This document shows positions 1,303 through 37,753 of a DNA stretch of 64,000 nucleotides, piece after piece; position 1 is the stretch's first letter; every line of letters starts with the position of its first letter. The notes below the pieces were generated by a model, which searched no databases, was not told where the DNA came from, and saw only the letters and a program-made list of their open reading frames with translations. The position numbers and the translations under genes were made by a program. Origin of the DNA: a virus; IMG/VR virus record IMGVR_UViG_3300009514_000888, positions 62,001-126,000 of that record; one strand, 5' to 3'.

Positions 1303-1345
1303 TTAACAAAGAATAACTGTCCAAACTGTTTGGGAGAAAGAACCT

Positions 1346-2158: not shown

Positions 2159-2184
2159 TTAGTATCCTCAACGGAGATGATGGG

Positions 2185-3700: not shown

Positions 3701-5486
<1,786 letters not shown>

Positions 5487-6045
5487 AGATTGCGAATCTT
5501 GTAGACGGTCTTGGGCCTGGCGCATTCAAGGGCGGTCGTCCGCAAAAAGACCCATTCGAATTTAAGCTTCCTGGAGATAAAAACCCAAAGGGCGAGCAGT
5601 TTTCCTGTCCCGCGTGCGGTCGCGATTGCGAAACAGGAGAAATATGCCAATTTTGTAATGTCGCCTGTGAGGGAAGCGGAGAATCTAAGCCATTAAAGCC
5701 AGATGATCCTGGTTCGCAGAAAAATCCTTGGGATCAATATATCCTGGCCCCGCAAGTGCAAAGAGGGGCAGAAGTTATTTTTGATAGCCGTTCTGGTAAG
5801 TTTACAACTTCTCAGATAGACCCTGACGCTGCCTTGATGCGGCGTATGAGAAAAAAGCGCAAGGGTTATCCTCTGGATTTGCCTGATTTGCCGCAAATTA
5901 GACCTCATAAATCAGATACGAAGTATATGCTTGATCCCTCATCAACTCATGGGAAAAAAGTCGATAGAAGACCTGCGACGGAAGAGGAAGCCGATCATGC
6001 CTGCAAATGCTTGGCTATCGATGGCTAAGGAGAAGAATATAACCG

Positions 6046-9000
6046 ATGAAATTGATTCTTCCAGATACCTCCCCGCAAGGGAGGAGACGAAAAGTAGCTG
6101 CGACAGGAGCTATTAGCGCTTCATCTCCAGCAACAGGACATTCGACGGGTTACGCCCGTAGCGTGTCTAGTCTTACTCCTATCACTAAGACATCTCAGTT
6201 TACCGGCTCTGGGGCAAATACCATTTTTACCCAGCCGATGTTTTTCTCCCCATTGCATACCCCGCAGAACTGGCAGATCGCGTCAAAAAGAAGAGAGATT
6301 TATCAATGGAGCTTTATTGATAATGATATAAATCCTTGTTACTTAACGCTTAAGAGCGGACAGCAAAAAAGAATATCTTCCTTTTATACAGATAGCACAT
6401 ATGCTACTTCTTCATATATAACCGATTTGAATCAAGATTATGTGGTTCTGGATGGGCATGGAAATCTCAATAGACCTGACAAAGTATCAAAAAGGTGGGT
6501 ATCTAAGAAGGCCAACAAAATAAAGGCAGTGGGACTACCTGAGTCGCTTGTGGTCACAAGTGATCACAAGTGTAGGGTGATCAAAAGGGCGGATTTACGC
6601 TGCAAGTACCATTCTAGAAAAAATTGTGTTCATGGACACTGTGCTCCAACATGCACAAGATTTAATTGTGATCTGTATAAGAATGTAAGTTATAAAATAT
6701 CAAATGTTTTGGCTTCTGAAATAGAGGTTGGGGACTACATATTGCAGCCTTTCCCAACAGATATTATTGACAGTTGCATTTCTTCGATAGATGAGGCTAG
6801 GTTTGCTGGGCACCTGGGTGCCGATGGCTGGTATTGCAATGGAGATAATGAGACTGGATATAAGGCAGTTGGTGTTTGTATGTCCGTTGATGAAAAAGAG
6901 TATGTAGGAGGTACGGTCGATGCTATTTTCGACCAATACGGAGGATCGGATTGTGAGTATTATAACAATAAAAGCAAAACATTGACAGCGAAGCGCACTT
7001 CTAATGTAAAGACAGTTAAATTTGCTGATAAAATTCTTAAGGGCAAGGGGTCAAAAAAGCGCTTTACAGAACAGGTCACTTTGCTTGATCCTATTTTGCA
7101 AAAGCATGTACTAGGAGCCTATATACAATCTGATGGTTCATACAACAAAGCAAATGATGTTTTTGAGATTACTTCTTATTCTCCGCATCTGGCTAATCAG
7201 TTGTTGATAATGTGCTACAGATGCGGAATTTTGGCTCGTGTGCATAAGCAGCCAATTAGTCGTTCGACAAAAACATTCAAAACCGACAATCAGTATCGTT
7301 ATATACTTTGTATTCCATCATCGGAATGCCGTAAGATATCTGAATACGTTCCTGGAAAATCTTCCAATTTGTCGATCAGAAAAAAGGGGTCTTCATGGAG
7401 ATTTTTTTGGGGTAATAATGTTGTTACCAGAGTTTCGTCAAACGAAGAATTTGATTACGAGGGATTTGTCTACGACATAAGGGTTCCTCCTTCTTTTACT
7501 GTATGCGCCAACGGCGTTTCCGTTCATCAGTGCCGCTTCTATTATGAAAACGAGCCAAAGGTTGCTGCGGGCGTTGACTTCTATTGCTTCGATCCAAAAA
7601 CTCCAGTTTTAATGGCAGATGGATCGCAGAAAGCTATTGAGTCAATTTCGGTAGGCGATGCAGTTCGATCACACGATGGGAGCGTGGGCGCTGTAGAAGA
7701 AGTACATCGCCGACAAGCGGAAGAGCCTATCTATTGTATCCATATTTCTGGGGTTAATAACGGAACTCTTAAAGCAACAGGCGGGCACCGTATCCTTGTA
7801 TCTAGAAAGGAAAAAATTCAATGGATGAATGTTTGCGACTTGAAGAAGGGAGACTTCCTGTTAGCCCCATGTAATTATGAGTCGGTTATTGATGAGTCTG
7901 GAATACGTGATACTCCATACTTTGTTAATGGTAAGTATATTTATCGTCAAGTGTTGTCTGTAAAAAAGAAGCCCTACAAAGGCGATGTATATGACTTAAC
8001 AGTTCACGGGGCGCATACTTACGTGGCAAATAGGGTCGCTGTTCACAATTCGACATTCGCAATGAATGGCTTTAAGTTAGAGTGCAAATCCCAGGATGTT
8101 CTTGAATACTTTGAGCAGCTTATAGAAGATATCGATTTGGCCGATTGGCTGCAACACATCAGCCATGAATATTATCTACTTGGCGATGTTTTTCCGTTCT
8201 TGGAAATTGAGTGCCCAACGTGCAAAGGAAAGGGCGTGGACCCGAAGACCAGGGATCGTTGCAGCCATCCTGGAGGAACATTCCGGTCCATCCGCTTGAT
8301 GAATCCCGATTATATAGAAGTCCAAGACAATGTTTTGGCTGATCATCCTGTGATCGCAATGATGCCGGATGAAGAATTGAGAATGATTATTGCTCGTCGT
8401 CAGCCAAAAGAGATATATGAGAAATTGCCTCAAGAACTGGTTGACCTGGTTGCCACAGGACGACCCATTCCGCTGTCTCCGAGAAGCGTTAGCCATCTCA
8501 AGTTCAATGGCTCTGCCTACGGAACATACGGCACCTCCATGCTGCGCCGTTTGTTTACGATTCTTGCCTATAAAACCAAGATTATGACGGCCAATTGGAT
8601 CGTCGCCGAAAGGATGATCCTGCCTGTTCGCGTTGTCAAGGTTGGAGACAAAGATCGTCCAGCCAGCGAAGACGATTTGCAGGATGTTGCAAATCAGTTG
8701 GCAGCAGTTGTCAATGATCCGAACTTGACAATTATTACTCACCACGCATTTGAATACATGTGGCATGGTGCGACTGGCAAAATTCATAATATTAGCGCTG
8801 AACTTGAAGAAGTTGGTAAAGAAATTCTTGATGGGCTTATGTTGAACCAGGCTATTCTAAACGGGGAGGCAGCAGGATATAATAGTGCGCAGGTTGGCGT
8901 TGAAGTTATGATACGCCGTCTCGAGAATTGGCGCAATAAACTAGCGAAGTGGGTTCAGAATCACATCTTCAAGCCCATCGCTATGATGCAGGGATTTTTA

Positions 9001-10038
9001 GATGATGAGCAAAGCCGTAGCCTTAAGCGGAATATCTATGTTTTCCCGACCGTCAAGTTTAACGAAATGCATTTGCGGGATAAATCGAACTTTATCCAAA
9101 TCCTCATGCAGGCGTATGACAAGGGCATGGTCTCCTTACAGACTGTTTTGGACGAAATGGGTCTGGACTACGATGTCGAAATCGAACGTCGTAGAGAGGA
9201 AAACCTCGTCACCACAGCAACGGGCATGATGATGCCTGGCGCAAATGCCGGACCAATGGGTATGGGCGGCGGCGCTCCGCCAATGGGCGGCGGCGGGCCA
9301 CCTCCACCTGGAGATATGGGAGGCATGGGAGGCGGTCCAGAGATGGGCATGCCTGGCGCTCCGCCTGGCGGAGGGATGGGTGCTGGCGCAGGCGCGCCGG
9401 GCGCAGGAGCGCCTGGTGCAGGCGGGATGGGCGCAGCGGCAGCAGGTCCAGGCATGAGTCCAGAAGAAGGTGTCGCCGCGCCTTCAAAGGTCATGAAAAG
9501 AGGCAAGGGCGATAAGAAAGGCAAGGAAGAAGAGATGGCAGTGGCCCCTAAGCTGTTTAAGTTGACCAAACTTGAGCAGAAGATGAAGAAGATGCTAGAG
9601 ACCCTGGATGTTCCTTATGGGCTTTACGGCCAATATCAGATTCAGCTAGCAGGGCAGCAGCAGCCGTTCTTGCTTGATTTTGCGTATCCGAAGATTGGCA
9701 TAGGAATCGAAACGGATGGAGCTATATGGCATGAGCGACAGGACTTGAAGGAACGAGACAAGATGAGGGACCAGATGTTAGCGAATGTTGGTTGGCGTAT
9801 CCTCAGATTCAATGAGCAAGCAGTTAATGAGAATATGGATATGGTTCGCAATGTTGTCTACAAGAATATCATGGAAGCAGCCAAGGGACGCAAGAAGGCA
9901 GCAGAGAATCAGGATAGTATGTCCAAGTTTGCTGCCATGACAGAAGGCATAAATGATATAAACACAAAGGATTTTAAGGTTAGGCTTGAGGAATTAGACA
10001 ATAATATGGGATATATGTTGCTTGTAGGAACTTCGTAA
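6046..10038 (+). CDS. Portal protein precursor with two inteins and a C-terminal Vsr-like nuclease domain
   Basis: The portal is the dodecameric ring at the capsid vertex through which DNA is packaged. The 1330-residue precursor has extein sequence at residues 1-88, 496-513 and 669-1330; removing two inteins (89-495 and 514-668) leaves 768 residues. The extein carries portal-like stretches (HTPQNWQIASKRREIYQW joined to CRFYYENEPKVAAGVDFY, then STFAMNGFKLE; later YGTSMLRRLFTIL). A Cys-rich insertion follows near residue 725. Residues about 1062-1145 are a Gly/Met/Pro-rich linker. Residues about 1175-1280 form a Vsr/DUF559-like domain with D1211, E1222, D1224 and the WH pair 1228-1229. A clear AAGGAG site precedes the ATG. 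The portal call rests on motif memory and gene order; the intein boundaries are well supported. Confidence 0.85.
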   Translation: MKLILPDTSPQGRRRKVAATGAISASSPATGHSTGYARSVSSLTPITKTSQFTGSGANTIFTQPMFFSPLHTPQNWQIASKRREIYQWSFIDNDINPCYLTLKSGQQKRISSFYTDSTYATSSYITDLNQDYVVLDGHGNLNRPDKVSKRWVSKKANKIKAVGLPESLVVTSDHKCRVIKRADLRCKYHSRKNCVHGHCAPTCTRFNCDLYKNVSYKISNVLASEIEVGDYILQPFPTDIIDSCISSIDEARFAGHLGADGWYCNGDNETGYKAVGVCMSVDEKEYVGGTVDAIFDQYGGSDCEYYNNKSKTLTAKRTSNVKTVKFADKILKGKGSKKRFTEQVTLLDPILQKHVLGAYIQSDGSYNKANDVFEITSYSPHLANQLLIMCYRCGILARVHKQPISRSTKTFKTDNQYRYILCIPSSECRKISEYVPGKSSNLSIRKKGSSWRFFWGNNVVTRVSSNEEFDYEGFVYDIRVPPSFTVCANGVSVHQCRFYYENEPKVAAGVDFYCFDPKTPVLMADGSQKAIESISVGDAVRSHDGSVGAVEEVHRRQAEEPIYCIHISGVNNGTLKATGGHRILVSRKEKIQWMNVCDLKKGDFLLAPCNYESVIDESGIRDTPYFVNGKYIYRQVLSVKKKPYKGDVYDLTVHGAHTYVANRVAVHNSTFAMNGFKLECKSQDVLEYFEQLIEDIDLADWLQHISHEYYLLGDVFPFLEIECPTCKGKGVDPKTRDRCSHPGGTFRSIRLMNPDYIEVQDNVLADHPVIAMMPDEELRMIIARRQPKEIYEKLPQELVDLVATGRPIPLSPRSVSHLKFNGSAYGTYGTSMLRRLFTILAYKTKIMTANWIVAERMILPVRVVKVGDKDRPASEDDLQDVANQLAAVVNDPNLTIITHHAFEYMWHGATGKIHNISAELEEVGKEILDGLMLNQAILNGEAAGYNSAQVGVEVMIRRLENWRNKLAKWVQNHIFKPIAMMQGFLDDEQSRSLKRNIYVFPTVKFNEMHLRDKSNFIQILMQAYDKGMVSLQTVLDEMGLDYDVEIERRREENLVTTATGMMMPGANAGPMGMGGGAPPMGGGGPPPPGDMGGMGGGPEMGMPGAPPGGGMGAGAGAPGAGAPGAGGMGAAAAGPGMSPEEGVAAPSKVMKRGKGDKKGKEEEMAVAPKLFKLTKLEQKMKKMLETLDVPYGLYGQYQIQLAGQQQPFLLDFAYPKIGIGIETDGAIWHERQDLKERDKMRDQMLANVGWRILRFNEQAVNENMDMVRNVVYKNIMEAAKGRKKAAENQDSMSKFAAMTEGINDINTKDFKVRLEELDNNMGYMLLVGTS
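6310..7530 (+). mobile_element. Portal intein 1 with LAGLIDADG endonuclease (407 aa)
   Basis: This intein covers residues 89-495 of the portal precursor. It starts with Ser after the extein QW and ends in VSVHQ before Cys, so its C-terminal residue is Gln instead of the usual Asn; known inteins sometimes do this. Block A is atypical (SFIDNDINPCYLTL). Two LAGLIDADG motifs, FAGHLGADG (253-261) and LGAYIQSDG (356-364), show an inserted homing endonuclease with acidic catalytic residues in both motifs. The C-terminal splicing block FDYEGFVYDIRVPPSFTVCANG is clear. A His/Cys-rich stretch (HSRKNCVHGHCAPTC) within the intein may bind zinc. Confidence 0.88.
7585..8049 (+). mobile_element. Portal intein 2, mini-intein (155 aa)
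   Basis: This intein covers residues 514-668 of the portal precursor. It begins CFDPKTPVLMADGS, a textbook N-terminal splicing block, and ends YDLTVHGAHTYVANRVAVHN before Ser. The TxxH block (ATGGH) is present. There is no endonuclease insertion, so it cannot home by itself. It lies only 18 extein residues after the first intein. Confidence 0.93.
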
Positions 10039-11390: not shown

Positions 11391-14300
11391 ATGAGTTTAA
11401 CAAAGACGGCTACGTCTAACAATTGTTCTATCCATCCCCTCAATAACCCAGGTTGGGATATATACAAGTTGCCAGAGATGGTCAAGATGGCTTCGCTTGA
11501 AAAATCGAAGGGCGAAGACCTCGGTGGTTTCGATCTCGGCGCAGCTGTAAAAGATCACCCAGATAACCTTTTCGTCAAGATTTTCGCCATCAAAGAAGAT
11601 GAAGTCAACGACAATGGCGACTACTTTTCAGCAGAAGAATTAGAGAAATCAGCTGGTACATTTGTTGGCGTTCCAGTATTCACCAATCACCAAAATGACG
11701 ACATCGAACGCGCCAGGGGCGAATGCGTCCACGCATGGTATGACAAGGATGCGCAGGGCATTTTCATTATTGCCAGAGTTGATAAGATCGCTTATCCGAA
11801 ATTAGCCCGAGGCATAGAAGAACAAATCATTAAATCAACCTCAATGGGCGCGTCACGCGGCCATGATCTCGTTACCATGTCCGACTATTCGTATAAGCGG
11901 GTAGACGAATTAAAAATAGGAGATCAGGTTATTACTCATACGGGAAGGACAGAGAGTGTCCATGCCCTTTGCAGAACCCAAGAACATGACGAATTATATC
12001 ACATTAAATGGAATGGCAAGAAATCTGGTCTTGCCCTAAGCCATGAACATCCCGTTCTGATACTTAGGCATGATGATCTTCATTTGGCGCAGCCAACTGG
12101 GGAAAGATGCAGAAAGACTCCGCTAGAGATCAATGAAAACATAAAGCCTGCATTCGTTGAAGCAAGCCAGGTTAGAGAAGGGGATTATGTTCTCGAGATT
12201 ATTGATGGGCCTAGGTCTGATATAGACACCGAGATAGGTAGAGTCGCCTTGAATACAGGGGCTCCAGTCACGCTTTCTGGGCATGATGTCGTTGCCTTGA
12301 CATCTACCGTCATGGACCCTGACGCCGAGTATACGGGACATCATTTTGCTATTTCTGATCCATTGTCAGCATTTTCATACAAAGTAAAGCTAAATAAGCG
12401 ATCCAAAAGACTTAAATTTGACTCATTCTTTTATGACAAATATATTGCTCACAGGGTAGAATCTGTAGATAAGATTAGGAATACAGAACCTACTTATTAT
12501 GTGCAGATAGGGGAGATAGATGATACCGAAAGTGATCATAGCTATATTCTAAACGATATTGCTACTCACAACTGCTCGGTGGAGGGCAGTGTGTGCTCTA
12601 TTTGCCATAATTACTCTACGACAGCTGATTCGTATTGCACGCATATTAGAAATCAAAAAACAAGAAAAACATCAACGACCTGCAAATGCAAATATCACGA
12701 AAGCGCAGATTTAGATGGCAGTAAAAAAGATGAGCCTTGCCCTGTTTGCGGCGCTACCAAGAGTGACTCGAAGCAACTCAAGCACTCTGATCAGGAAGTC
12801 TTTGAATACAACTACGGGCTGAAGTTCATCGAGAACTCGTTCGTGGTCAATCCTGCGTGCCATACCTGCGGCGTTGCATGTATTCTCAATGAACCAGAGA
12901 TAAACAAGAAAGTTGCTTTCCTTCAGGAGCGCATTCAGAAACTTTCTCATGATTTCAATAAGGGAATTAAACTCGGGAAAAATGCTGGGCGAGAAGAATT
13001 AGATGCCCTTCAGGAAGCAATGAACAATATCGAAAAAGTATCCAAGTCTATGTTGGCCCAAAAAGACCAAGTAGACCTGGAATTCGTCAGCGATCTCGTC
13101 AAACTCATGTCTGACTTACAGGATACAACTGACGAACTTATGGAGATGGGATATGCGCAACTCCCGTCTCCTCCAGACTTTGTGACTGGGTCGGGGGTAG
13201 AGGGCGATGTTACATTTCCTGATCCAACTGCGGGTATCCCGCAGCCTGCGCAGCAGATGGGGCCGCCACCGGCGACTCAAACGACTCAGACTCCGTCTGC
13301 GACCCAGACTGACATTATAGGCGGCCTAGGTTCGGTAACTAAGCCTGCAATGTCAACGTTAGTCAATCAAAAGAAGGAGTTTATAAGAACTTCTTCGAAT
13401 CTGGGTAAAAAGATTTCTGCGCTAGCAAGGCGCATAAACAATCTGGCAAGGAGCAGCACTGTGTCCGATGCCCATACGCATGTTTGGGATGATGGGAGTG
13501 ACCCATCTTCCCGCAATGTATTAATAGACGAAACCTATATCACAGAGTCCCAGGGGGATACGGTGCTGCGGGTTTCTGCCATTTCTGAATTACCCACTGA
13601 TCTTCAAAAGATGATTAGGTCGAATCCCCAAGAAGCGGGGAGACGTGTCCTTGCGAGCTATAAGGAGTCTGGATATACCATGAAAGATAACTCAACTGAG
13701 AAGACCGCTGCTGTCGGGCCGTTCGGCAAGGATAGCGCGTCCCAGCAAGAGGTCATTACTGAAAAGCAGTTGCGCAACGAACCTCCTGACCTGCACCCTC
13801 GCTGGGGCGATACCTATGAGCAGATTACTGAGTCCAATGAGCAACTTGGACGCAGCGATGATAAGATGCATGATACCACTTCTGATTCCCCGCAAAAAAG
13901 ACTGGGAACTTATGAAACAATCACTGAGGACCAGCTAAAGGTCGTTACTGATGGTCATATTGTGCGCGCCAATGACTGGCCCGAAGTTGTGACTGAAAAG
14001 CAATGGACTGATATGGCTCGCCTCGTCAGCGCTGAACTACCAGACGACTGGACAGAGCGTATCACCGAAGCACAAATCCGCGATCTTCTGGATCATCACA
14101 GGTTCGTCGGACCTTATGAAACTATTACCGAAGATCAGCTTAAGAATCAGGACTGGGGCATCAAGCGATGGGCCAGCGCGACTTATACACAACAGCTGGC
14201 GAAGGTTGCTGTGAATGCCATCTCTGATGCGATTGCTCGCTTTAATAAGACTCCAGAAGAGATCGACAGGGTAGCGTCATATGTGAATGATAACCCCGTT

Positions 14301-17300
14301 AATACATCAAAGATTGCGTTCCTGACGCTCATCAATGCCCTTCCTTTTAAGAAGAAAGCACGCGAGAAACTCGCCAGGAATGTTGCTTATTTCCAGAAAA
14401 GAGCGTCTAAGAGCGCAGAAATGCCGAATGCCCTCGATGCTCTGATCATTTCTATCGCCAATCATGCCCATCATGGCTTGAGGGCGGAGGATGTCTATGA
14501 AGCTATCGCTCGCTCCCTAAATAACAAGAAGGCGATGGCCAAGGTAGATAGCCTTGTGCAAACTAAATTGGCTTCCGTTCCTGGAATGGAAGATGAGATT
14601 CTTGATAAGTTTTCGGCTATTGATCGCGCCTTCGATATGGTTGATCGCCCCGAAGACGGTAAATGGCAGGTCAAGGCAACGGTTAAGGAGGTCTTGGCTT
14701 CCGCTAATAAGGAAGCTCGCACCAATAAGGCTAAGTTCATCCAGGCTGCCCATGAGTTCGCTTTGGACCAGATCGGACCTGAACTGGATAAGAAAGCTGG
14801 CGTTCTGCTAGAAATCGAAGTCCAGGATGGCACTGTGTCTGTTACTGAAGGCGATAGCGGAATGGGACTTGAGGGTCCAGATGAACTGCTAGAAGATTTC
14901 GACATGGAGCTACTGGGAGATGAGGGCGACCTCGGCGATGGCCTGGGCGGCGACCTCGGCGACGATGAAAAAGACATGGGCGGCATGGCTGGCACCGGCG
15001 GTATGGCCGGAACAGGCGGCGGCGCAGGTATGAGCTATATGGCGTCTCAGAATGCGCGATCTAAAATCACCAAGCAGGCTCAGCTCATGGGCGGGGAAAT
15101 GGGCGGCCAGGGCGGCGCAGCGCAGGCTCCTGGCGCGGGGGCAACTTTGCCCCAGCCCCCAATGGGAGAAGCGCCTCCAATGGAAAGCTTTACTGGTCAG
15201 GATGACGAGTTGGGCGGCGAATCGCATGACCTGTCTCCGAAGCCACCTGGCTCGATTTGCCCTGTTTGTGGCAGCGAAGATGTTGATGTTGCTGAAGGCG
15301 GAAGTCGTTGCGCCAACTGCGGGAGCGACTTCAGCGTCAAGGTTAATCTCGAAGTTAACGATTGGGCGAACCTCACCAGCACCGAAGATAATCTTGAAAG
15401 CGGCGAATTGGGCGGCGAGGATGAAGGGATGGGATTCGAGATGCCAGAAGGCGGCGGGGCAGGCGCTCCTGAAATGCCTATCGCGGCGATGACTCGCATA
15501 TCTCCCGAAGCTCTTCAAAAGGTTGCCAAGATGGCTGAGGCCATCAAGGGTACGAGCGAAGAGAGCTGGGGTAAGTTCTCAAAGCTTGTATCGGATGGAG
15601 GATACGGGTTAAGCCAGAAGATGGCAGAAAGCTATGCGACTAAGCAGGAAGTTAAGCTTGGATCGATTAGTCCATTGACCGGCAATGATAATACCGTCCA
15701 CATGGGCGGAAATGAATACGTTTGTCTTGCGACTGGCACGAAGTATACGGTTGACTTTGCAACCAATACCAAGAAGCCAGAGCATGTTTATGCCCAATGG
15801 GCTTATACGCCTAGGTATGCAAGCGCAATCTGCCCGTCTTGCAATAGGGCAAGAAAGCGTTTCGCTTCACAGCTTAAAGCATTCGGCGTCAAAGAAGACC
15901 AGTTCGATGCTATGAATCCTTATGAAAAGGCCAAGACCATCGTTGCTATGAAGAAGGCTGGCGTTCTCAAGGAAATCAAGACTGCTGATAAGATCGGAAC
16001 AGTGCTCCAGGATTACAAGAAGGCTTACGGCGTCTTTGGGAATGGCGACAAGTTCCCGATGGAATCTTGCCGACATAAGCTGGCTCGTAAGTGGGGAGAA
16101 AACTCCCTGGCTATTAGCGGACCTTGCGAAGGACAGCCTATCCATGAGTGCGTTTGTAATCAGCTAAAGAATGCAGGAATCTATTCAGATCAGGTTGCCA
16201 TCAAGCTCGCATCTGTTTGGAGCGGAGCTGATGGATTCGAAGATTGCGTTACCGACCAGGTCCGATCCAGACTCTCCCTGAGAGAGGCGGCGGTTGTTTG
16301 CTCGGCCCTGAAAACCGCGCTCGCCAATGATGAAGAATTCCTCGGCGACAGCCTTGGAGATGATATGGGCGGCGACCTCGGCGGCGATGATATGTCCGCC
16401 GTTGGCGATGAGCTCGGCGGCGATGAACTCGGCGACGACTTCGATCCGTTTGATGGCGGAATGGAAGGCGGCGACCTGGGCGGCGGGATGGTGACTTTGG
16501 AACTGTCCGAAGATGTTGCGAAGGAACTCGATGCCAACCTGGATGCCGCTCTTGGTAGCGATCCAACTGATGACCTCGGCGAAGGAGAAAGCCTGGGCGA
16601 GGCCGCTCCTGGGCTGGAAGGCGGCGAAGGGCTTGACGCTGGCGGAGACCTTGGCGTGGGCGGCAGCAATATTGATGAGCTAGATATGCTTGACGAGAAT
16701 GCCTGCAAGCCGTGTCATGATGCGAAGCCCATGATGGGCGGCAATAACATGGTGCCTACTGCTGGTAAGAAGGACAAGAATGAAGGAAAGAACGTCGATG
16801 AGTTTGTAAACAATGAACTTAAGGAGCCTGGCGATCTCAAGGGAGTTGAAACCAAGAAATCGTCTGACTCGGTCCAGCACAAGGAGGCCTCTCATATGAG
16901 AAGTAGCTTTAGCAGAACAGGACAGGTAGAAATGGACCTGCTCTCAGTAGCACGAAAACTCGGCCTCTCTAAAGAATCTGGCGAAAAAGAAATTCAACAA
17001 GAACTCGTTCAAGACTCCGGCGATATCGGTTCTTACTCTGCTGGCGACCCGCTCGGCAGCGATCTCCCGTCCGCAATGGGGCATGAAACCGAATCCGTCT
17101 CCACCGCAGAGCATCCCAGCGTTCCTCGCGGCGAAGCCCTGATGGGACACGAGTCTGATAATATTGATAAGTCCGAACCCCTGCCGCATATCCCGTCTGA
17201 TAAAGGCACGATGGGGCATGAGGACGAAGTCGGACTGTCCGGCGGCGATGTCCGCTTCACGGGCGGATATGGGGCTGGCGGAGCTGGCTCTCCTGGCGCT

Positions 17301-18125
17301 GGCCAGGCAGAAACTAATGCCGCCTCCGAAGAGCAACTTCGCAAAGAAGCAGAAGAAAAGGTATTGAATGAAGTTGCCCGCATGAGAGGACTCGGCGGAA
17401 ACACAAAGTCCAGTATCGATTCTCTGGTTGATCGTTTGCTGGCCAATGCCGAAAAACCGCTCAAGCAAGCAGACTTCGGAAAATTAAAGGCCCCTAAGCC
17501 TGTTGCAGATGATAAGGATATCCAGCCAGTCGATGGCGGCGGCAAGGGTATCGCGCATGAACCGAATTTCTCGGCGGATACGCCGACGAATACCGAGGGA
17601 GGCAAGACCACATCCCTGATGGGACATGAGCGAGAATCGCTCGGTGGCGCTCCCAAATCCCCCGCCGATCATCCTACGGTCCCTGCTGATAATCAGCTGA
17701 TGGGTCATGAGGAAGGCGGCGAGGTTGGACCTGAAAAAGGTAGAGAAAACAAGGGTACCGTCATCGCAGGAGACGATGGTGCGTCCGAGGCTCGTACGAA
17801 ACTCGCAACAACCGTTGCGGCTGAAATGATGCAGTCCGGCCTGATCAAGGTCAATGAACTGCATAGTAAAATTGTTGAACTCAGCAAGTATGAGCCTGCC
17901 CAGATTCAAGACATTCGTAAGGCAATGTTTTCAGGGCGTAAAGGACTCGACACGGTATCGGACGGGCTCGAGCGGCCTGTAATCATCAATGAAGCTAGTA
18001 ATCAGAGAGATGGTAATCATGAACTCTCTGAAAAGCTCCAATCGATGTTTACCCTTTCAAAGCGAACAGAAGAGGCTTTGAAAGACCCAGATTTCGCTCT
18101 CAAATATGCTCATAGAGTGTTTTGA
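11391..18125 (+). CDS. Prohead protease-scaffold-like giant protein with intein
   Basis: This encodes 2244 residues, or about 2003 after intein removal (residues 154-394). The N-terminal extein (about 45-175 after splicing) resembles phage prohead maturation proteases of the S78/U35 type. It has NDNGDYFSAEELEK, a His in VPVFTNHQ (H100), and a Ser-containing STSMG joined to CSVEG at the splice junction. Downstream are Cys motifs (about 430-457, 487-500, 1290-1312, 1479) and six (I/V)TE-type repeats (about 787-923). Two Gly/Asp-rich acidic stretches (about 1157-1207 and 1650-1764) and five MGHE repeats (about 1895-2105) follow. Its position between portal and decoration/capsid genes fits a protease fused to a scaffold or core protein. 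The protease assignment is moderate; the scaffold role is inference from size, acidity and position. Confidence 0.65.
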   Translation: MSLTKTATSNNCSIHPLNNPGWDIYKLPEMVKMASLEKSKGEDLGGFDLGAAVKDHPDNLFVKIFAIKEDEVNDNGDYFSAEELEKSAGTFVGVPVFTNHQNDDIERARGECVHAWYDKDAQGIFIIARVDKIAYPKLARGIEEQIIKSTSMGASRGHDLVTMSDYSYKRVDELKIGDQVITHTGRTESVHALCRTQEHDELYHIKWNGKKSGLALSHEHPVLILRHDDLHLAQPTGERCRKTPLEINENIKPAFVEASQVREGDYVLEIIDGPRSDIDTEIGRVALNTGAPVTLSGHDVVALTSTVMDPDAEYTGHHFAISDPLSAFSYKVKLNKRSKRLKFDSFFYDKYIAHRVESVDKIRNTEPTYYVQIGEIDDTESDHSYILNDIATHNCSVEGSVCSICHNYSTTADSYCTHIRNQKTRKTSTTCKCKYHESADLDGSKKDEPCPVCGATKSDSKQLKHSDQEVFEYNYGLKFIENSFVVNPACHTCGVACILNEPEINKKVAFLQERIQKLSHDFNKGIKLGKNAGREELDALQEAMNNIEKVSKSMLAQKDQVDLEFVSDLVKLMSDLQDTTDELMEMGYAQLPSPPDFVTGSGVEGDVTFPDPTAGIPQPAQQMGPPPATQTTQTPSATQTDIIGGLGSVTKPAMSTLVNQKKEFIRTSSNLGKKISALARRINNLARSSTVSDAHTHVWDDGSDPSSRNVLIDETYITESQGDTVLRVSAISELPTDLQKMIRSNPQEAGRRVLASYKESGYTMKDNSTEKTAAVGPFGKDSASQQEVITEKQLRNEPPDLHPRWGDTYEQITESNEQLGRSDDKMHDTTSDSPQKRLGTYETITEDQLKVVTDGHIVRANDWPEVVTEKQWTDMARLVSAELPDDWTERITEAQIRDLLDHHRFVGPYETITEDQLKNQDWGIKRWASATYTQQLAKVAVNAISDAIARFNKTPEEIDRVASYVNDNPVNTSKIAFLTLINALPFKKKAREKLARNVAYFQKRASKSAEMPNALDALIISIANHAHHGLRAEDVYEAIARSLNNKKAMAKVDSLVQTKLASVPGMEDEILDKFSAIDRAFDMVDRPEDGKWQVKATVKEVLASANKEARTNKAKFIQAAHEFALDQIGPELDKKAGVLLEIEVQDGTVSVTEGDSGMGLEGPDELLEDFDMELLGDEGDLGDGLGGDLGDDEKDMGGMAGTGGMAGTGGGAGMSYMASQNARSKITKQAQLMGGEMGGQGGAAQAPGAGATLPQPPMGEAPPMESFTGQDDELGGESHDLSPKPPGSICPVCGSEDVDVAEGGSRCANCGSDFSVKVNLEVNDWANLTSTEDNLESGELGGEDEGMGFEMPEGGGAGAPEMPIAAMTRISPEALQKVAKMAEAIKGTSEESWGKFSKLVSDGGYGLSQKMAESYATKQEVKLGSISPLTGNDNTVHMGGNEYVCLATGTKYTVDFATNTKKPEHVYAQWAYTPRYASAICPSCNRARKRFASQLKAFGVKEDQFDAMNPYEKAKTIVAMKKAGVLKEIKTADKIGTVLQDYKKAYGVFGNGDKFPMESCRHKLARKWGENSLAISGPCEGQPIHECVCNQLKNAGIYSDQVAIKLASVWSGADGFEDCVTDQVRSRLSLREAAVVCSALKTALANDEEFLGDSLGDDMGGDLGGDDMSAVGDELGGDELGDDFDPFDGGMEGGDLGGGMVTLELSEDVAKELDANLDAALGSDPTDDLGEGESLGEAAPGLEGGEGLDAGGDLGVGGSNIDELDMLDENACKPCHDAKPMMGGNNMVPTAGKKDKNEGKNVDEFVNNELKEPGDLKGVETKKSSDSVQHKEASHMRSSFSRTGQVEMDLLSVARKLGLSKESGEKEIQQELVQDSGDIGSYSAGDPLGSDLPSAMGHETESVSTAEHPSVPRGEALMGHESDNIDKSEPLPHIPSDKGTMGHEDEVGLSGGDVRFTGGYGAGGAGSPGAGQAETNAASEEQLRKEAEEKVLNEVARMRGLGGNTKSSIDSLVDRLLANAEKPLKQADFGKLKAPKPVADDKDIQPVDGGGKGIAHEPNFSADTPTNTEGGKTTSLMGHERESLGGAPKSPADHPTVPADNQLMGHEEGGEVGPEKGRENKGTVIAGDDGASEARTKLATTVAAEMMQSGLIKVNELHSKIVELSKYEPAQIQDIRKAMFSGRKGLDTVSDGLERPVIINEASNQRDGNHELSEKLQSMFTLSKRTEEALKDPDFALKYAHRVF
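11850..12572 (+). mobile_element. Intein in the prohead protease-like protein (241 aa)
   Basis: This intein covers residues 154-394 of the 2244-residue precursor and ends HSYILNDIATHN before Cys395. The N-terminus is taken as Ala154. Aligned to portal intein 2, the GD pair of block A falls at positions 24-25 only if Ala is residue 1; Ser155 is the alternative. Block B is visible as LSHEHPV. No LAGLIDADG or HNH motif is apparent, so this is a mini-intein with a somewhat long linker, possibly a decayed endonuclease region. The extein joint STSMG/CSVEG falls on the presumed catalytic serine motif. Confidence 0.87.
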
Positions 18126-18835: not shown

Positions 18836-21800
18836 ATGAGTCTTGCTAAGAATGGTCTTTCAGACCAAGATAAGGAAATGGTTATTGCCCAAGCGCTGAA
18901 TACCGACGAAGGTCGCACAGCTCTTGCCCAGGCAATGGTAGAGCCTATCCGCCGCTCGCTTGAGTAGATTGATGCTCCTCGTATTGGCAACAATATGAGC
19001 AAACTCGGCTTATTTGCGTGAAACCTAAATCTGAAAAGATATGGTAATACGCAGGGAAGTCTAAAGGAAACTATGATAAACGCAATCTCAAAACCTAATT
19101 ACCAAGACGTTCGCAGTATGTATTGCGAGCAGGGGTATACGTTTGCAGAAATCGCAAATGAATACGAATGCAGCTCGTCTATGATTAGAAAGATTGCGAA
19201 AAGGCATAACATCCCCATTATGAGGGGAAGAAGTAAAACAAGAAAAGTTATTGTTCAAAAATCCAAAATATCACTAGCTCTAACAAGAAATGATATTGAA
19301 CGATTTGGAAACGCCTTCTCCAGACAAGCATATGAGATGTCTATGGGATCGCTCCTGGGAGATGCGTTTTTGAAGGTAAGGCAAAATAAGTATAATTCAA
19401 GGTATAATATTTATTTTGCCCATTCTGTTGATCAGAGGCATTACCTGGAATACAAGAGAGAATTTTTCTCTGATGAAGAAGCCAATGATATCAGAATCGA
19501 ATACAGGGACAATAATGATACTTATATCAAAGGGAAAAAAGTCAACCAGAAAGACTTGGTAGTTTTTTCAACCAAGTCATACAATTTAAGTAATCTTCAT
19601 AGAATGTTATATAAAAACAATGTTAAACGCATTACGATGGAATACTTGAAATTGCTTACTCCATTATCTTTGGCTACATGGTACATGGATGATGGCAGCT
19701 ATAATAAGCAAAATCGTTTGATTAGAATCGCTACAATGTGTTTCACTAATAAAGAAAATAACATACTCAAGGATTACTTCTATAACAGGTTGAAAATGCC
19801 ATGCTTTCTTGAAAAAGTTAATTGTGGACATGGTCGTTCAATTGTATTAACACAAAACTCTACAAGAAAGTTCTTGGCTCTTATATATCCTTATGCCTGC
19901 AAGATGATGCAATACAAGTTTCCTAATGACCCCTCAGAGACTCTGAAAGCTGTTACGACAGTGAGTAAGGAAGCGCTCGCAAGAGTCGCTTAATAGCGCT
20001 GGGCATCCGTATAACGGATGATGATATAGTCCAACCCTCAATGAAAATTGAGAATAGTTGATCAAGCGGTCGGACGTAAGCTGCTGATGGTGGATTAACC
20101 TAAAAAGCTTGTCCACCTAGAATCGCGAGATTCTATCAAAAAAACCAGACTCATATCGGGGAAACCTAAATCGAAAGATAAGGCAATCCCGAGGGAAGTT
20201 TAAGGAAAGTTCTTGAAGGTTCACAATGAGTAAGAAATACGAAATTAACACTGATAAAGTCATTTCTTCTTATATGGAGAAGAATATGACCATGAAAGAG
20301 ATAGCATCTCAATATGGATGTCATCGTAGTGTTATCGCTCGTATTCTTAGTATGGCTTACAAGAATAAGCTTTCTGATAACCCCGTAGAGACTTGCCCAG
20401 ATATGGGCAGAGTGTCAGTACTGAAATGTTCTGATGCTAATACGTCTGGCTCTTCCTCTTATTGGAAGATGATGGTATAGTCCACGGCTCCCGAAAGGGA
20501 TGACCGATTGGAGCTTCCACAAGGCGCTCTTGCTCGTTACGAGCGAGACGTTGCCTCCATCGCTCACGTCGTTTCTCGTCGCGGCGCAGTGCCCGACCAG
20601 ATCGTCGAAGGCGAAGAAATCCTCGTTCCTACTTTCGAAATCGCCGCGAACCCCACGGTTCGTCTTAGCGAAATCAAGGCACGCCGCTTAATGACGATTT
20701 AAGTAGAGGTGGCGTTAAATCCGACCAAATGCTGGAAACCCCTTAGAGCCTTGAATACCAAAGCGTAACAATTTCAAGGATTGGGCAATCAGCAGGAAAG
20801 AACCCGAAAGCATTATGAAACTTATAGAACAACAAGACAAGATAGTAAGAATGTATTTGGATGAAAAGAAATCCATTCGCGCTATTGCTAGACTTTTGGA
20901 TTGTTCTATGTCTGGGATCAAAAGTATTTTGCATAAAAATAATGTCAAGATGAGAAATAAGTGTGAATCTCTAAATTTGTGCCCAGATAGTTTCAGCGAG
21001 GAAGAATTTGATATTGTATTCGGAACTACGCTTGGAGATGGACATATCACCAAGAAGAGAGGACCGAAAGGCGAATGCCAACTATATGTTGGTCATGGCT
21101 TGAAGCAAAGCGATTACTTAAACTGGAAGTACCAGAAAATGTTGCGCTTTGTTTCCGGTATGCCATATGAGCTAAAGCATTACTTGAAATCGAATAAGAA
21201 GACCTATATAACATTGAACTTTATTACTAGAAAAAGTTCATTGTTTACAAAGATGAGAGAAGCCTTTTATCCAGAAGGAAAAAAGGTAATCCCCTGCGAT
21301 TTCGAAGATAAGATTAATGCAAAATCATTAGCTATTTGGTATATGGATGATGGATATAGGTATAAGAACAAAAACAATATCGAAATTCATACTCAATGCT
21401 TTACTCATGAAGATCAATTAAGAATATTGAAAATTCTTAAGAAGAAGTTTGGAATAGTATCTCACATAAGAACCCTTCCCACAAGAAAAGAGATTGTATT
21501 TATACCCTCTGCATCTTGCGGTAAGTTTCTACAAGTTGTGAATGATCATATTGTTCCAAGCATGAGATATAAAGGGTTATCCTCAGAGGCTATTACGTCG
21601 GACATGCTCCTAAAAAAGCATGAAGATAGAGTCCGTTCTGCCAGGAAACTGGTAGAGATAACCTAACGGTTATCTGCCCAAAGAATCCAGATATGGATCA
21701 TGGGTGCAAAAATAACATTAAGTTTACATCGTAGATAGAGCCCAGATTAAGGCCAAAGAAGCTATCCAGAAGGAAGAAGATACGAATATCTTTAATGCGC

Positions 21801-22252
21801 TGATCGCTGCCGCCGATACTCGCGGCGACCAGGTTGTGACGAACGTTGGTACCCTTACCATCGCTAGCCTCAATACTGCGTTCCGCTTGATTGAACAGCA
21901 CGACTTAGTGGCTGCGAAGATTGTCCTGCATGCCAACCAGTATGCTTCCGTAAGAACGTTCGGAAAAGATTTCTACGATGAGGCGACAACTCGAGAAATC
22001 ATCACGACAGGACTTTACGGACACCTGTGGACGGCTGACCTGCATGTTTCTTCCAGAATGGATTCAAATACTGTTCTGGTAGTAGCTTCCGCAGAGAATG
22101 TTGGCGCATTCCCAATCAGGCAGGATATTACTGTCCTTCCTGCTGACGATCCAAAGAAATTAAGATTGGGTTGGGTGATCTACGAGGAAGTAGGAATTGT
22201 TGTAGTCAACGACTACGCAATCTCCAAGATTGACGTTTCCGCTGCTACCTAA
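18836..22252 (+). CDS. Major capsid protein, four exons joined by three group I introns
   Basis: Exons are 18836-18965, 20061-20095, 20511-20688 and 21723-22252. Together they give 873 nt and a continuous 290-residue protein: MSLAKNGLSDQDKEMVIAQA..., RRSLE-YQAVGRKLLMVD-ELPQGALARYERD..., KARR-FYIVDRAQIKAK..., ending ISKIDVSAAT. The protein has the features of an HK97-fold capsid protein of large phages, and it lies right after the decoration gene. GGAG precedes the ATG. Without splicing, translation ends after 43 codons, at a TAG that spans the first exon/intron border. Frames match at each junction, and introns 2 and 3 have perfect P1 pairings at the predicted splice sites. Exon 2 is only 35 nt. 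A terminator follows at 22281. Family assignment is from gene order and sequence memory; the exon structure is directly supported. Confidence 0.85.
18966..20060 (+). ncRNA. Group I intron 1 in capsid gene (1095 nt)
   Basis: The 5' splice site follows a T (18965) and the intron ends in G (20060), as group I introns do. Core elements are visible: GAAACCTAAATC then a GGTAATACGCAGGGAAG stretch before the ORF, and GATGATATAGTCC after it (P7 side). A short P1 (exon GAGT with intron GCTC at 18974) is weak. It carries the LAGLIDADG gene at 19073. Its core is clearly related to intron 2. Confidence 0.85.
19073..19993 (+). CDS. LAGLIDADG homing endonuclease of intron 1
   Basis: This encodes 306 residues with AAAGGAAAC before the ATG. 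An N-terminal helix-turn-helix (YTFAEIANEYECSSSMIRKIAKRHNI, residues about 22-47) is followed by two LAGLIDADG-type motifs: SLLGDAFL (about residue 95) and LATWYMDDGSY (about 200-210). This is the family of intron-encoded DNA endonucleases that cut the intronless allele and drive homing. Both motifs keep their acidic residue, so activity is plausible. The same HTH plus LAGLIDADG layout appears in the gene of intron 3 and, truncated, in intron 2. Confidence 0.88.
   Translation: MINAISKPNYQDVRSMYCEQGYTFAEIANEYECSSSMIRKIAKRHNIPIMRGRSKTRKVIVQKSKISLALTRNDIERFGNAFSRQAYEMSMGSLLGDAFLKVRQNKYNSRYNIYFAHSVDQRHYLEYKREFFSDEEANDIRIEYRDNNDTYIKGKKVNQKDLVVFSTKSYNLSNLHRMLYKNNVKRITMEYLKLLTPLSLATWYMDDGSYNKQNRLIRIATMCFTNKENNILKDYFYNRLKMPCFLEKVNCGHGRSIVLTQNSTRKFLALIYPYACKMMQYKFPNDPSETLKAVTTVSKEALARVA
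20096..20510 (+). ncRNA. Group I intron 2 in capsid gene (415 nt)
   Basis: The 5' site follows T20095. Exon GGTGGAT pairs perfectly with intron GTCCACC (20111-20117), giving a 7-bp P1 with the diagnostic U-G pair at the splice site. The intron ends in G20510. Core sequences GAAACCTAAATCGAAAGATAAGG, AATCCCGAGGGAAGT and GATGGTATAGTCC match intron 1 closely, so the two are paralogues. The endonuclease gene is reduced to a remnant. Confidence 0.85.
20226..20480 (+). pseudogene. Remnant of intron endonuclease (HTH only)
   Basis: This 84-codon frame has a helix-turn-helix at residues about 18-45 (MTMKEIASQYGCHRSVIARILS). It has the same design as the N-terminus of the intron 1 and 3 endonucleases. 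After that the frame runs into the intron core and stops in the TATAGTCC element. The LAGLIDADG part is missing, so this is best read as an internally deleted homing endonuclease gene. It could still make a short DNA-binding peptide. Confidence 0.7.
20689..21722 (+). ncRNA. Group I intron 3 in capsid gene (1034 nt)
   Basis: The 5' site follows T20688. Exon ACGCCGCT pairs with intron GGTGGCGT (20708-20715) to give an 8-bp P1 with a terminal U-G pair. Classical core elements follow (AAATGCTGGAAACC, GGGCAATCAGCAGG), with GAAGATAGAGTCC near the 3' end. The intron ends in G21722. Its core differs from introns 1 and 2 and represents a separate lineage. Confidence 0.88.
20815..21666 (+). CDS. LAGLIDADG homing endonuclease of intron 3
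   Basis: This encodes 283 residues. An N-terminal helix-turn-helix (KSIRAIARLLDCSMSGIKSILHKNNV) is followed by LAGLIDADG-type motifs GTTLGDGHI (about residue 70) and LAIWYMDDGYR (about 175-185), each with its acidic residue. The C-terminus overlaps the 3' part of the intron core, including the P7 strand, so part of the gene is also ribozyme. It probably recognises the intronless capsid gene around the exon 3/exon 4 joint. Confidence 0.88.
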   Translation: MKLIEQQDKIVRMYLDEKKSIRAIARLLDCSMSGIKSILHKNNVKMRNKCESLNLCPDSFSEEEFDIVFGTTLGDGHITKKRGPKGECQLYVGHGLKQSDYLNWKYQKMLRFVSGMPYELKHYLKSNKKTYITLNFITRKSSLFTKMREAFYPEGKKVIPCDFEDKINAKSLAIWYMDDGYRYKNKNNIEIHTQCFTHEDQLRILKILKKKFGIVSHIRTLPTRKEIVFIPSASCGKFLQVVNDHIVPSMRYKGLSSEAITSDMLLKKHEDRVRSARKLVEIT

Positions 22253-22280
22253 TAGACTTACGTAAAACTGAATACCTCAA

Positions 22281-22307
22281 AGCCCCCAAATTAGGGGGCT
22301 TTTTTTT
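22281..22307 (+). terminator. Rho-independent terminator after capsid gene
   Basis: A perfect 7-bp stem (AGCCCCC / GGGGGCT) with a 6-nt loop is followed by eight T residues. It closes the head gene block. Confidence 0.93.
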
Positions 22308-22315: not shown

Positions 22316-22360
22316 CGTATATAACTTTTTTCCAAATATCTCTTTATATATAACTTTTGC
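22316..22360 (+). promoter_or_regulatory. AT-rich direct repeats, possible promoter
   Basis: The stretch TATATAACTTTT occurs twice between the terminator and the next gene. The position suits a promoter for the endonuclease pair downstream. No matching motif was confirmed elsewhere in the window, so this is weak. Confidence 0.3.
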
Positions 22361-22395
22361 TAAAGAGTAGTTGTGATTTAGTCGATGGTAGTGTT

Positions 22396-23583
22396 ATGTC
22401 TAAGGCAGGTAAGATTAAGGTTCTTTTTCCCCATCTTTATCAGGAGCTAGATCGTTTTTCTAATAAGGGTATAGATTTGGATGGATTAACATCTGGCTCC
22501 AATGCATACGTTTGGTGGAGATGTGTCTATGGTCACTCTTGGAAAGCCCAGGTCTATAATCGTGTTAAGGGGACAGGATGCCCTTACTGCTCTGGAAATG
22601 CCATATCAGACAATAGTCTACAAAAGAAGCAACCTGACTTGGCTTCTCAATTCTGTAAGATCAAGAACGATCTGTCTCCAGACGAGATTTCTTTCTGTAG
22701 TAATAAGAAGGTTTGGTGGAAGTGTTCTAAGGCGGATGATCACGTTTGGAAGGCAACGCCCAATGATCGAAACAAAGCATCTGGGTGTCCTTTTTGTTCT
22801 GGTCGCCGAGCATCGAAAGATAATAATTTGCTAGATAAATACCCTGAAATTGCTAATCAATGGCATCCTACAAAAAATGGCGCATTAACACCCTCAGATT
22901 TGACGCCAGCTAGCGGGAAGAAAGTGTGGTGGAAGTGTAAGGTAGCTAGCGACCATGAGTGGCTTGCCTCTCCTAACACAAGAATCAATATGACAAACAG
23001 TTTAAGCTGTCCATTTTGCACAGGTCGCAAGGTGTGTAATTCGAATTGCCTGTCTACCACTCACGAGTTTTTACTAGATAGTTGGGATTTTAAGAAGAAT
23101 GAGATATCTCCTACAGAAATAACTTATTCTTCTCATAAAAAGATTTGGTGGATATGCGACAAGAAGCATAGTTGGTGTGCAAATGTATATAGTAGATCAG
23201 CAGGGAAGGGGTGCCAGCAATGCAATTTATCCAAAGGCGAGGCAAAGGTTGCTAAAGTTTTGTCTGACATGGGGATGTACTTCCAAAAAGAGTATAGATT
23301 TAAGAAATCCAAGATTCCCAGGAGAAAGTTTGATTTTGCGGTGTTTAATCAATCTATCCATTTGATAGAGTATCATGGGATTCAGCATTATGAGCCTGTT
23401 TCTTTTGGCTCTAAGACAGTTAAGGGGCAACAAACTCTAAAAAGAATTCAGCATAGGGATCAACTGAAGAGGGAATGGGTATTGGATAATGGTTATCCTC
23501 TTTTAGAGATACCCTATTGGGATTTTGATCAAATAGAACACTTAATAAGAGATTTTCTTTATGAGCGAAAGAAAGATTCATAA
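22396..23583 (+). CDS. Zinc-finger repeat endonuclease (DUF4379 plus Vsr-like domain)
   Basis: This encodes 395 residues from the ATG at 22396; an upstream in-frame TTG at 22357 is possible. There are four repeats of a treble-clef type unit with W(W/R)xC...H.W......R..GCPxC (DUF4379-like): VWWRCVYGHSW/CPYC, VWWKC/CPFC, VWWKC/CPFC and IWWIC/CQQC. The C-terminal 120 residues have a PD-(D/E)XK/Vsr-like arrangement: E near GEAKVAKVL, FDFAVF, then IEYHGIQHY and a terminal LLEIPYWDF. Proteins of this type are free-standing homing endonucleases in phages. The gene lies between a terminator and another Vsr-like nuclease. Confidence 0.8.
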   Translation: MSKAGKIKVLFPHLYQELDRFSNKGIDLDGLTSGSNAYVWWRCVYGHSWKAQVYNRVKGTGCPYCSGNAISDNSLQKKQPDLASQFCKIKNDLSPDEISFCSNKKVWWKCSKADDHVWKATPNDRNKASGCPFCSGRRASKDNNLLDKYPEIANQWHPTKNGALTPSDLTPASGKKVWWKCKVASDHEWLASPNTRINMTNSLSCPFCTGRKVCNSNCLSTTHEFLLDSWDFKKNEISPTEITYSSHKKIWWICDKKHSWCANVYSRSAGKGCQQCNLSKGEAKVAKVLSDMGMYFQKEYRFKKSKIPRRKFDFAVFNQSIHLIEYHGIQHYEPVSFGSKTVKGQQTLKRIQHRDQLKREWVLDNGYPLLEIPYWDFDQIEHLIRDFLYERKKDS

Positions 23584-25255
23584 CTACGAGTCTGTCATCT
23601 TGGTAGAAAAAACAATCCAAGATGAAGGATATAACCCGAACAAACTGGGAAGAACATCTAGGAAGTTCATATGGGCATCTTGCCGTGTATGCGGGGAATC
23701 TCATCGCATTCGTAAGGGATTCTATAATAAGGCAGGATCGGCATGTCATAAAGAGTGTAGGATGCAGGAACAGTCCCAATTCGGCTCTCCTTTTTCTGAT
23801 CCAAAGGTGAAAAAGAAAGCTCAGGAGAATAGGACCAGGAACATATCTCAAAAAGAATTGAACAGACGCATATCTATAGGCCGGAAAAAGGCTCAGTCTA
23901 AGATAGAAGAAACCAACATGCAGAAGTATGGTGTCAGAAATACATTCCAATCTGGAGAAATTAAGGAGAAGATAAAAAAGACTAATTTGGATAGGTATGG
24001 GGTGGCTCATCCTATGCAGTCAGAGGATATTGCGTCCAGGGCGAAGGGAACAGTTAGAGAAAAGTATGGGGTTGACAATGTAATGCAATCCGAGCCGATA
24101 CGGTCTAAGGCAATTGAAACCAATAAGCAGAGATATGGGGTTGCAAATCCTATGCAAGATAAGGATATCTCAGAGAAATCTAGAGCTGGATTTCAAACTG
24201 CTGTAGACGAAGACCTTAATGACAATTATCGACTTATCAATACTTTGAGAGGTGATGATTTTTGGAACAAAATGGCAGAAGAAGAGTTAACCCTTAAAGA
24301 GTTATGTGATTTTTTTGATATTAATTATCAAAGCGCAACTTATAGGCTTGTTCAAGATGAATTCAGAGACAAGTATCATAAAACATATCATTTTCCAAAG
24401 CACCAGGAGCAAATGAGCATATGTAGAATGATTGAGTCTTGCGGGGTAAAGGTGGATGCTAATACCAGGCAAGTTATACCTCCGCTGGAGATAGATATAT
24501 ATTGTCCTGAATCAAAGCTTGCTATTGAATTCAATGGAAGCTATTGGCATTCTGAGGCTTTTTTAGACAGTAGTCAATCAAGGCATAAGCATATAGAGAA
24601 AACCAGAATGTGCAGGGAGAAGGGGATAGAGCTGATTCATGTATTTGAGCATACTTATAGAGAGCGTAAAGATCAAATATTAGGATTCATTCAATCCGCC
24701 CTTGGATCAAATACGGTTAGAATTCATGCTAGAAAATGTAATATTACTCACAATGATTCTTCATGGTTTATGAACAAACATCATGTTCAGGGATCGACCA
24801 AGAGCATTAAGTATTTTAATCTTGAATATGATGGAGAGATAGTTGGGTCTATGACTGCGGGCAAGCATCATGAAAAGGGGGGAGACAGGATGGCATGCGT
24901 ATTAAATAGACTAGCTTTCAAGAGAGGTGTTACTATTCAGGGAGGATCAGGTAGGTTATTCAAATACTTTAGGCAATGGGCCAAAGGAGAGGGATATGAT
25001 CAGATCATTAGTTGGTCAGATTCATCCTTAACCAGTGGCAAGGTATACAATACATTGGGATTTAATATGGAGGTTGAGCATGCCCCTGGATATTTCTATT
25101 TTGACATGAAAAATGGCCGATATTTGAGTCGTCAGTCTCAAAGAAAAACCAATAAGTTGAGGCCAGATGGCGTGACTATTAGAGAATGGAATAGAGCGAG
25201 AGGATTATATCCAATATGGGATTGCGGAAAGAAAAAGTGGACATATCATCTTTAG
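23561..25255 (+). CDS. Vsr-like homing endonuclease with KYGV repeats
   Basis: This encodes 564 residues and overlaps the previous gene by 23 nt. A short N-terminal zinc-knuckle-like part is followed by four repeats of the type (K/R)YGVxNxMQS (residues about 125-205), known from phage endonuclease-like proteins and probably DNA-binding. Residues about 300-375 hold a Vsr/PD-(D/E)XK-like nuclease core (EIDIYCPESKLAIEFNGSYWHSE, then the conserved Glu/Lys helix and ELIHVFEH). The last 180 residues form a separate domain with HHVQG and GGSGRLFKYFRQWA that may be acetyltransferase-like in fold. Probable role: a selfish free-standing homing endonuclease. Confidence 0.78.
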   Translation: MSERKIHNYESVILVEKTIQDEGYNPNKLGRTSRKFIWASCRVCGESHRIRKGFYNKAGSACHKECRMQEQSQFGSPFSDPKVKKKAQENRTRNISQKELNRRISIGRKKAQSKIEETNMQKYGVRNTFQSGEIKEKIKKTNLDRYGVAHPMQSEDIASRAKGTVREKYGVDNVMQSEPIRSKAIETNKQRYGVANPMQDKDISEKSRAGFQTAVDEDLNDNYRLINTLRGDDFWNKMAEEELTLKELCDFFDINYQSATYRLVQDEFRDKYHKTYHFPKHQEQMSICRMIESCGVKVDANTRQVIPPLEIDIYCPESKLAIEFNGSYWHSEAFLDSSQSRHKHIEKTRMCREKGIELIHVFEHTYRERKDQILGFIQSALGSNTVRIHARKCNITHNDSSWFMNKHHVQGSTKSIKYFNLEYDGEIVGSMTAGKHHEKGGDRMACVLNRLAFKRGVTIQGGSGRLFKYFRQWAKGEGYDQIISWSDSSLTSGKVYNTLGFNMEVEHAPGYFYFDMKNGRYLSRQSQRKTNKLRPDGVTIREWNRARGLYPIWDCGKKKWTYHL

Positions 25256-37654: not shown

Positions 37655-37753
37655 TCTTGCCTCCGTACAAATTGTCTTCAGCAAAAAGGATTATCTATCC
37701 TTCATATTTCGTTGTGCCGATACAACTGTGTACTAAAGAAGGAGACATTAAGG

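Follow-up and report, generated by a model that had tools for sequence, protein, structure and literature searches.

Staphylococcus phage Twort carries three group I introns in orf142, a tail tube gene subject to exon skipping, as summarized in later accounts of the original work (Landthaler and Shub 1999, cited in PMC11878797, PMC3073962), and in mycobacteriophage LittleE the capsid gene is interrupted by one group I intron, the splicing of which has been shown (PMC3706429). The introns of the Bastillevirinae are mostly IA-like, number two or three in some genes, leave a small exon in phiNIT1, and are known to be incompletely covered by the Rfam model (PMC11878797); why phage introns sit almost only in genes of nucleotide and DNA metabolism has been asked in a recent survey (PMC11878797). 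This article concerns positions 18,836 to 22,252 of a 64,000-nucleotide (nt) stretch of viral DNA (positions 62,001 to 126,000 of IMG/VR record IMGVR_UViG_3300009514_000888; hereafter the window), where three insertions divide one gene into four exons. With a probability of about 0.93, the gene encodes the major capsid protein of a large, phage G-like phage, is present in a single copy, and is broken up by three group I introns that would be removed by self-splicing.

The four exons (Table 1) join into an open frame of 290 codons plus a stop codon, whereas an unspliced read from exon 1 meets a stop at once, a TAG at the start of intron 1. An earlier note, made by a model from the sequence alone, had claimed that the exons rebuild a capsid protein and had pointed to the capsid proteins of huge phages for comparison; both proposals hold up, in that the joined protein matches the PHROG 2522 major head protein (E 1.9e-64, residues 9-284), phage G gp27 (54.5% identity over 96%) and the solved structure of Gp27, the major capsid protein of phage G (6WKK, E 1.7e-94). 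Three scans of IMG/VR yielded 95 distinct contigs with relatives of the capsid gene (96 with the window), most of them uninterrupted, including 77 distinct full-length coding sequences with identities of up to 90%. The joined protein aligns without gaps to about 77 distinct uninterrupted relatives at all three junctions (LEYQAVG, MVDELPQ and KARRFYIVD), which settles how each junction is to be read; the exact splice base was then chosen by the rule that the upstream exon ends in U and the intron in G. Alternative 3′ ends of exon 3, extended by 3, 6, 9 or 12 nt, would also remain in frame, but the residues they add are absent in all relatives. Where it could be computed against relatives, the ratio of non-synonymous (dN) to synonymous (dS) substitution is about 0.1-0.2 for exon 1 and about 0.04-0.06 for each of exons 3 and 4, and exon 2 has a dN of 0 (no amino-acid change) against seven of eight relatives; each exon thus appears to be under purifying selection, where computable. 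No second copy of the capsid gene was found in the 186-kb record, and in a genome collection the capsid gene lay on only one contig, from a metagenome bin.

Each of the three introns contains the full set of helices, namely P1, P3, P4, P5, P6, P7 with a bulged A, P8, P9 and P10, and ends in G. The P1 helices with a splice-site U-G that had been reported for introns 2 and 3 were recovered with 7 and 8 base pairs (bp), and intron 1 also has one, of 4 bp; P10 pairings with the 3′ exon, absent from the earlier note, were found in all three introns (5, 6 and 5 bp, in order). Measured against dinucleotide-shuffled intron starts, P1 and P10 together reach p about 0.0005 for introns 2 and 3, and RF00028 is the best Rfam match in each of the three insertions. 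The previously noted likeness of introns 1 and 2, which lie 35 nt apart, is likewise seen in their core (80% over 51 nt, E about 2e-6). Both carry a P7.1/P7.2 insertion between P7 and P3′ that intron 3 lacks; such an insertion is the mark of group I subgroup IA, to which introns 1 and 2 would be assigned on their predicted structure. Intron 3 shares 81% over 43 nt with an intron after codon 268 in another contig (L206).

The site of intron 2, after codon 55, is occupied in five further contigs (L072, L078, L193, L207 and L209), and the six same-site alleles were aligned with their open reading frames (ORFs) and parts of the P5 loop taken out. In this alignment 97.8% of cells are paired, a figure that falls to about 50% when the partners are slid by one base, and compensatory change is seen in 31 of 62 pairs, compared with 11.2 in shuffles (0 of 500 reached 31). 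P10 covaries with synonymous exon changes (GAGCUU/AAGCUU, GAGUU/AACUU and GAAUUGC/GCAAUUU). Such covariation over six alleles strongly indicates that the pairings are used. An initial placement of the P7 5′ strand of intron 2 at UGCUA, just before P3′, was dropped because the alleles place P7 at GAGACU, and the position of this strand, with P7.1 and P7.2 lying between, is supported by the way in which the pairing and covariation of the surrounding helices fit.

The three guides are specific to their own exons, pairing with them over 4 + 5, 7 + 6 and 8 + 5 bp (P1 + P10) and with all others over at most 2 bp, so ordered splicing is likely despite a 35-nt exon between two related introns. It has been documented between group I introns of Twort and SIOphi, insofar as PMC11878797 relates it, that exons can be skipped, and the shared core of introns 1 and 2 and the weak P1 of intron 1 would suit a similar process here, with some transcripts omitting exon 2 and the frameshifted message lowering or timing capsid production as in Twort orf142 or SIOphi. 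We consider this unlikely, since P1 and P10 are intron-specific to the extent just described and since loss of 35 nt breaks the frame and leaves no obvious product.

Several points weigh against three self-splicing group I introns. The P1 of intron 1 is just 4 bp long, and its guide fit alone gives p about 0.06 in shuffles. The RF00028 scores, 27-38 bits (E 2e-9 to 4.5e-6), are under the curated cut-off of 50 bits, so that a plain search at the Rfam gathering threshold misses the introns (0 of 3 called), and the group I search suggested at the outset therefore succeeds by E-value for all three and fails by cut-off for all three. Introns 1 and 3 have no same-site alleles, and covariation covers intron 2 only. 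The endonuclease ORFs of introns 1 and 3 overlap core helices, which means that splicing and translation could compete. Intron 1, with the weakest P1, is most likely the one of the three that would splice poorly or need help. Its short P1, together with the deleted endonuclease of intron 2, would also fit a gene in decay, in which at least one intron no longer splices and the genome is a dead or defective copy; this we regard as very improbable, given that the core helices of intron 1 are all intact, the P7 guanosine site included, that the exons are under apparent purifying selection without stop or frameshift, and that a viable phage has to express an essential single-copy gene. In a metagenomic contig such as this record, pieces of different phages could have been joined in assembly, but the chance of that is negligible, as five other contigs have an intron at the exact codon 55 site with the same guide and each guide in the window fits its own exons on both sides. 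The negative gathering search would allow the insertions to be something else (group II introns, inteins or ribosome-bypass gaps), which is implausible in the extreme when stops inside them rule out inteins, no Rfam model matches any of the three better than RF00028, and each has the P3/P7 pseudoknot, P10 and a terminal G.

Introns 1 and 3 contain intact LAGLIDADG endonuclease ORFs, in which both motifs could be read directly; the ORF of intron 1 begins beside P6 and shares sequence with the P7 5′ strand, P7.1 and P7.2, and that of intron 3 extends across P7, P3′, P8 and P9. The 84-residue ORF of intron 2 gave no LAGLIDADG match in a profile search, and resembles residues 1-41 of the L207 homing endonuclease (63%) and residues 254-287 of that of L078 (65%), so it is the remnant of a LAGLIDADG endonuclease from which the whole LAGLIDADG domain was deleted in frame. 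Among the same-site introns, that of L193 has undergone an endonuclease loss resembling that of intron 2, that of L207 has a broken endonuclease frame, and that of L209 has its endonuclease in the P1 loop, not in P6. With empty, active-looking and decayed alleles at codon 55, all stages of the homing cycle are seen at one site. Pattern searches of IMG/VR found no relatives of the intron 1 endonuclease and only distant ones of the intron 3 endonuclease; one of the latter (28%; L229, positions 4-4753) has a distant capsid homologue (35%) some 3 kb upstream of it. Directly 3′ of the capsid gene in the window (22357-25255) are genes for a 408-residue protein with four DUF4379 treble-clef fingers and a 564-residue DUF7487 protein, which could possibly be free-standing homing nucleases that help intron movement.

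Among the 96 contigs, the window included, 11 have introns in this gene, and five of these have two or more. The introns occupy ten sites: after codons 18, 31, about 33, 43, 46, 55, 114, 121, 220 and 268. This gene is thus an intron hot spot. Nine of the sites are resolved, and the stretches of the gene that hold them are better conserved than random ones (p about 0.009 for DNA and 0.003 for protein), as expected for homing endonuclease targets. The most divided relative is L209 (IMGVR_UViG_3300025122_005837, positions 2902-5430). Its group I introns number at least four and lie after codons 18, 31, 46 and 55, so that its first 55 codons form exons of 54, 39, 45 and 27 nt, which rejoin in frame; three of its introns are just 205-244 nt long, and three of the four score above the Rfam cut-off. 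This contig stops at codon 197 with GGAAAGGATT followed by AGA, possibly the start of another intron. L206 (positions 5492-6193) has two short introns without endonuclease, after codons 220 and 268, both above the Rfam cut-off. The introns of L209 and L206 were accepted by Rfam match and frame, their P1 and P10 being not significant by a simple contiguous scan. Introns with approximate borders were seen near codon 33/34 in L053, L055 and L196, and those of L053 and L196 contain a different endonuclease with a LAGFFDAEGS-type double motif. Rfam misses both introns of the L207 record, so counts that rely on it alone underestimate the number of introns. Of 58 viral contig stretches (L237-L294) that contain a 16-base motif of the intron 2 family (J8/7 plus the P7 3′ strand), just four lie in the capsid gene, so this family probably occurs widely in other genes.

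Splicing, endonuclease cutting and homing can be predicted from the DNA as follows. Each guide would fold in the pre-mRNA onto its own upstream exon end (P1) and its own downstream exon start (P10), and guanosine-initiated self-splicing would link the exons in the order 1-2-3-4, giving a continuous message of 290 codons. Introns 1 and 3 would be mobile by means of their LAGLIDADG endonucleases, which would cut intron-free capsid alleles of coinfecting relatives and allow the intron to be copied across. Intron 2, its endonuclease lost by internal deletion, may persist through clean splicing or by being copied along with a homing neighbour intron. A wider and doubtful proposal is that the capsid gene is a standing battleground, in which endonucleases serve as weapons that cut the capsid genes of coinfecting relatives, the first 55 codons owe their division into exons of 27-45 nt to one invasion after another, and the splicing of several introns gates or times the shell protein.

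Table 1. Coordinates of the capsid gene and its introns in the window (for helices, 5′ strand/3′ strand).
Feature	Position	Strand	Length and remarks
Exon 1	18836..18965	+	130 nt; codons 1-43 and first base of codon 44; from alignment of relatives
Intron 1, group I	18966..20060	+	1095 nt; helices read by hand
Intron 1 P1	18962-18965/18974-18977
Intron 1 P10	18969-18973/20061-20065
Intron 1 P3	19004-19009/19998-20003
Intron 1 P4	19015-19020/19048-19053
Intron 1 P6	19054-19056/19931-19933
Intron 1 P7	19937-19942/20028-20032
Intron 1 P7.1, P7.2
Intron 1 P8	20004-20009/20015-20020
Intron 1 P9	20037-20042/20047-20052
Intron 1 homing endonuclease ORF	19073..19993	+	306 residues; LAGLIDADG_2 PF03161, E 6.8e-30; N-terminus like a helix-turn-helix (HTH)
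Exon 2	20061..20095	+	35 nt; last two bases of codon 44 to codon 55; YQAVGRKLLMVD
Intron 2, group I	20096..20510	+	415 nt; helices and covariation
Intron 2 P1	20089-20095/20111-20117
Intron 2 P10	20105-20110/20511-20516
Intron 2 P2	20118-20124/20129-20135
Intron 2 P3	20145-20150/20444-20449
Intron 2 P4	20156-20161/20187-20192
Intron 2 P6	20193-20195/20382-20384
Intron 2 P7	20388-20393/20479-20483
Intron 2 P7.1, P7.2
Intron 2 P8	20451-20456/20464-20469
Intron 2 P9	20489-20492/20497-20500
Intron 2 endonuclease remnant ORF	20226..20480	+	84 residues; N-terminal HTH (residues 1-41) joined in frame to C-terminal tail
Exon 3	20511..20688	+	178 nt; codons 56-114 and first base of codon 115
Intron 3, group I	20689..21722	+	1034 nt; helices read by hand
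Intron 3 P1	20681-20688/20708-20715
Intron 3 P10	20703-20707/21723-21727
Intron 3 P3	20720-20725/21597-21602
Intron 3 P4	20730-20735/20789-20794
Intron 3 P6	20795-20797/21580-21582
Intron 3 P6a	20801-20805/21574-21578
Intron 3 P7	21586-21591/21630-21634
Intron 3 P8	21603-21608/21617-21622
Intron 3 P9	21638-21644/21649-21655
Intron 3 P9.1, P9.2
Intron 3 homing endonuclease ORF	20815..21666	+	283 residues; LAGLIDADG_2 PF03161, E 6e-35; HTH-like N-terminus
Exon 4	21723..22252	+	530 nt; remainder of codon 115 through stop codon
Probable terminator	22275..22306	+	GC-rich inverted repeat, then T run, directly past the capsid gene; read from sequence

Other elements were seen elsewhere in the window. 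The portal gene (6046-10038), a single frame, includes an intein (Intein_splicing E 8.5e-18, weak LAGLIDADG) and has a C-terminus like a DUF559/MTES nuclease, and a 2244-residue frame in the head gene cluster (11391-18125) may also include one, at a weak Hint match around residues 153-301. Behind an IMP dehydrogenase/GMP reductase domain (37616-38686), the start of a Hint (intein) region lies at residue 255, and this gene may extend downstream. At 58829-60144 a HEARO RNA (RF02033, 111 bits) precedes a 338-residue RRXRR protein, an arrangement that fits IscB/IsrB-type RNA-guided nucleases and their guide RNAs.

Counter to the pattern on which the recent survey remarks, a major structural protein gene has here been invaded repeatedly, at ten sites, with at least four introns in one allele and exons as short as 27 nt. 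The occurrence of alleles without an intron, with an intron and endonuclease, and with a deleted endonuclease makes the homing cycle and the cost of an intron in an essential gene directly testable, and micro-exons this short offer a test of the means by which a group I intron escapes mis-splicing to a neighbour. If Rfam cut-offs alone are used, introns will be missed and many phage genes will look broken.

A literature search, which did not cover subscription papers, found no report of a phage major capsid gene with more than one intron. The three introns and 35-nt exon that the earlier note called extreme for a phage are both present, but the description itself is too strong, as Twort orf142 also has three introns and L209 has at least four and a 27-nt exon. 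The gene stands out by an unusual concentration of introns in one structural gene, three-intron genes and capsid introns each having precedents. The gene in the window belongs to the same capsid family as that of Bacillus phage G (gp27, PDB 6WKK), which was matched as one uninterrupted stretch, whereas the gene here is in four exons. The Bastillevirinae introns lie in polymerase, terminase and nucleotide genes, not in a capsid gene. LittleE, an unrelated phage, likewise has a group I intron with an endonuclease within it in the major capsid gene, but only one, and its endonuclease is of the HNH type and on the opposite strand. Twort orf142 is, like the present gene, a virion structural gene that holds three group I introns, with related ones side by side; the present gene differs from it in encoding a capsid protein, in its LAGLIDADG endonucleases, in its 35-nt exon, and in guides that are apparently specific to their own exons.
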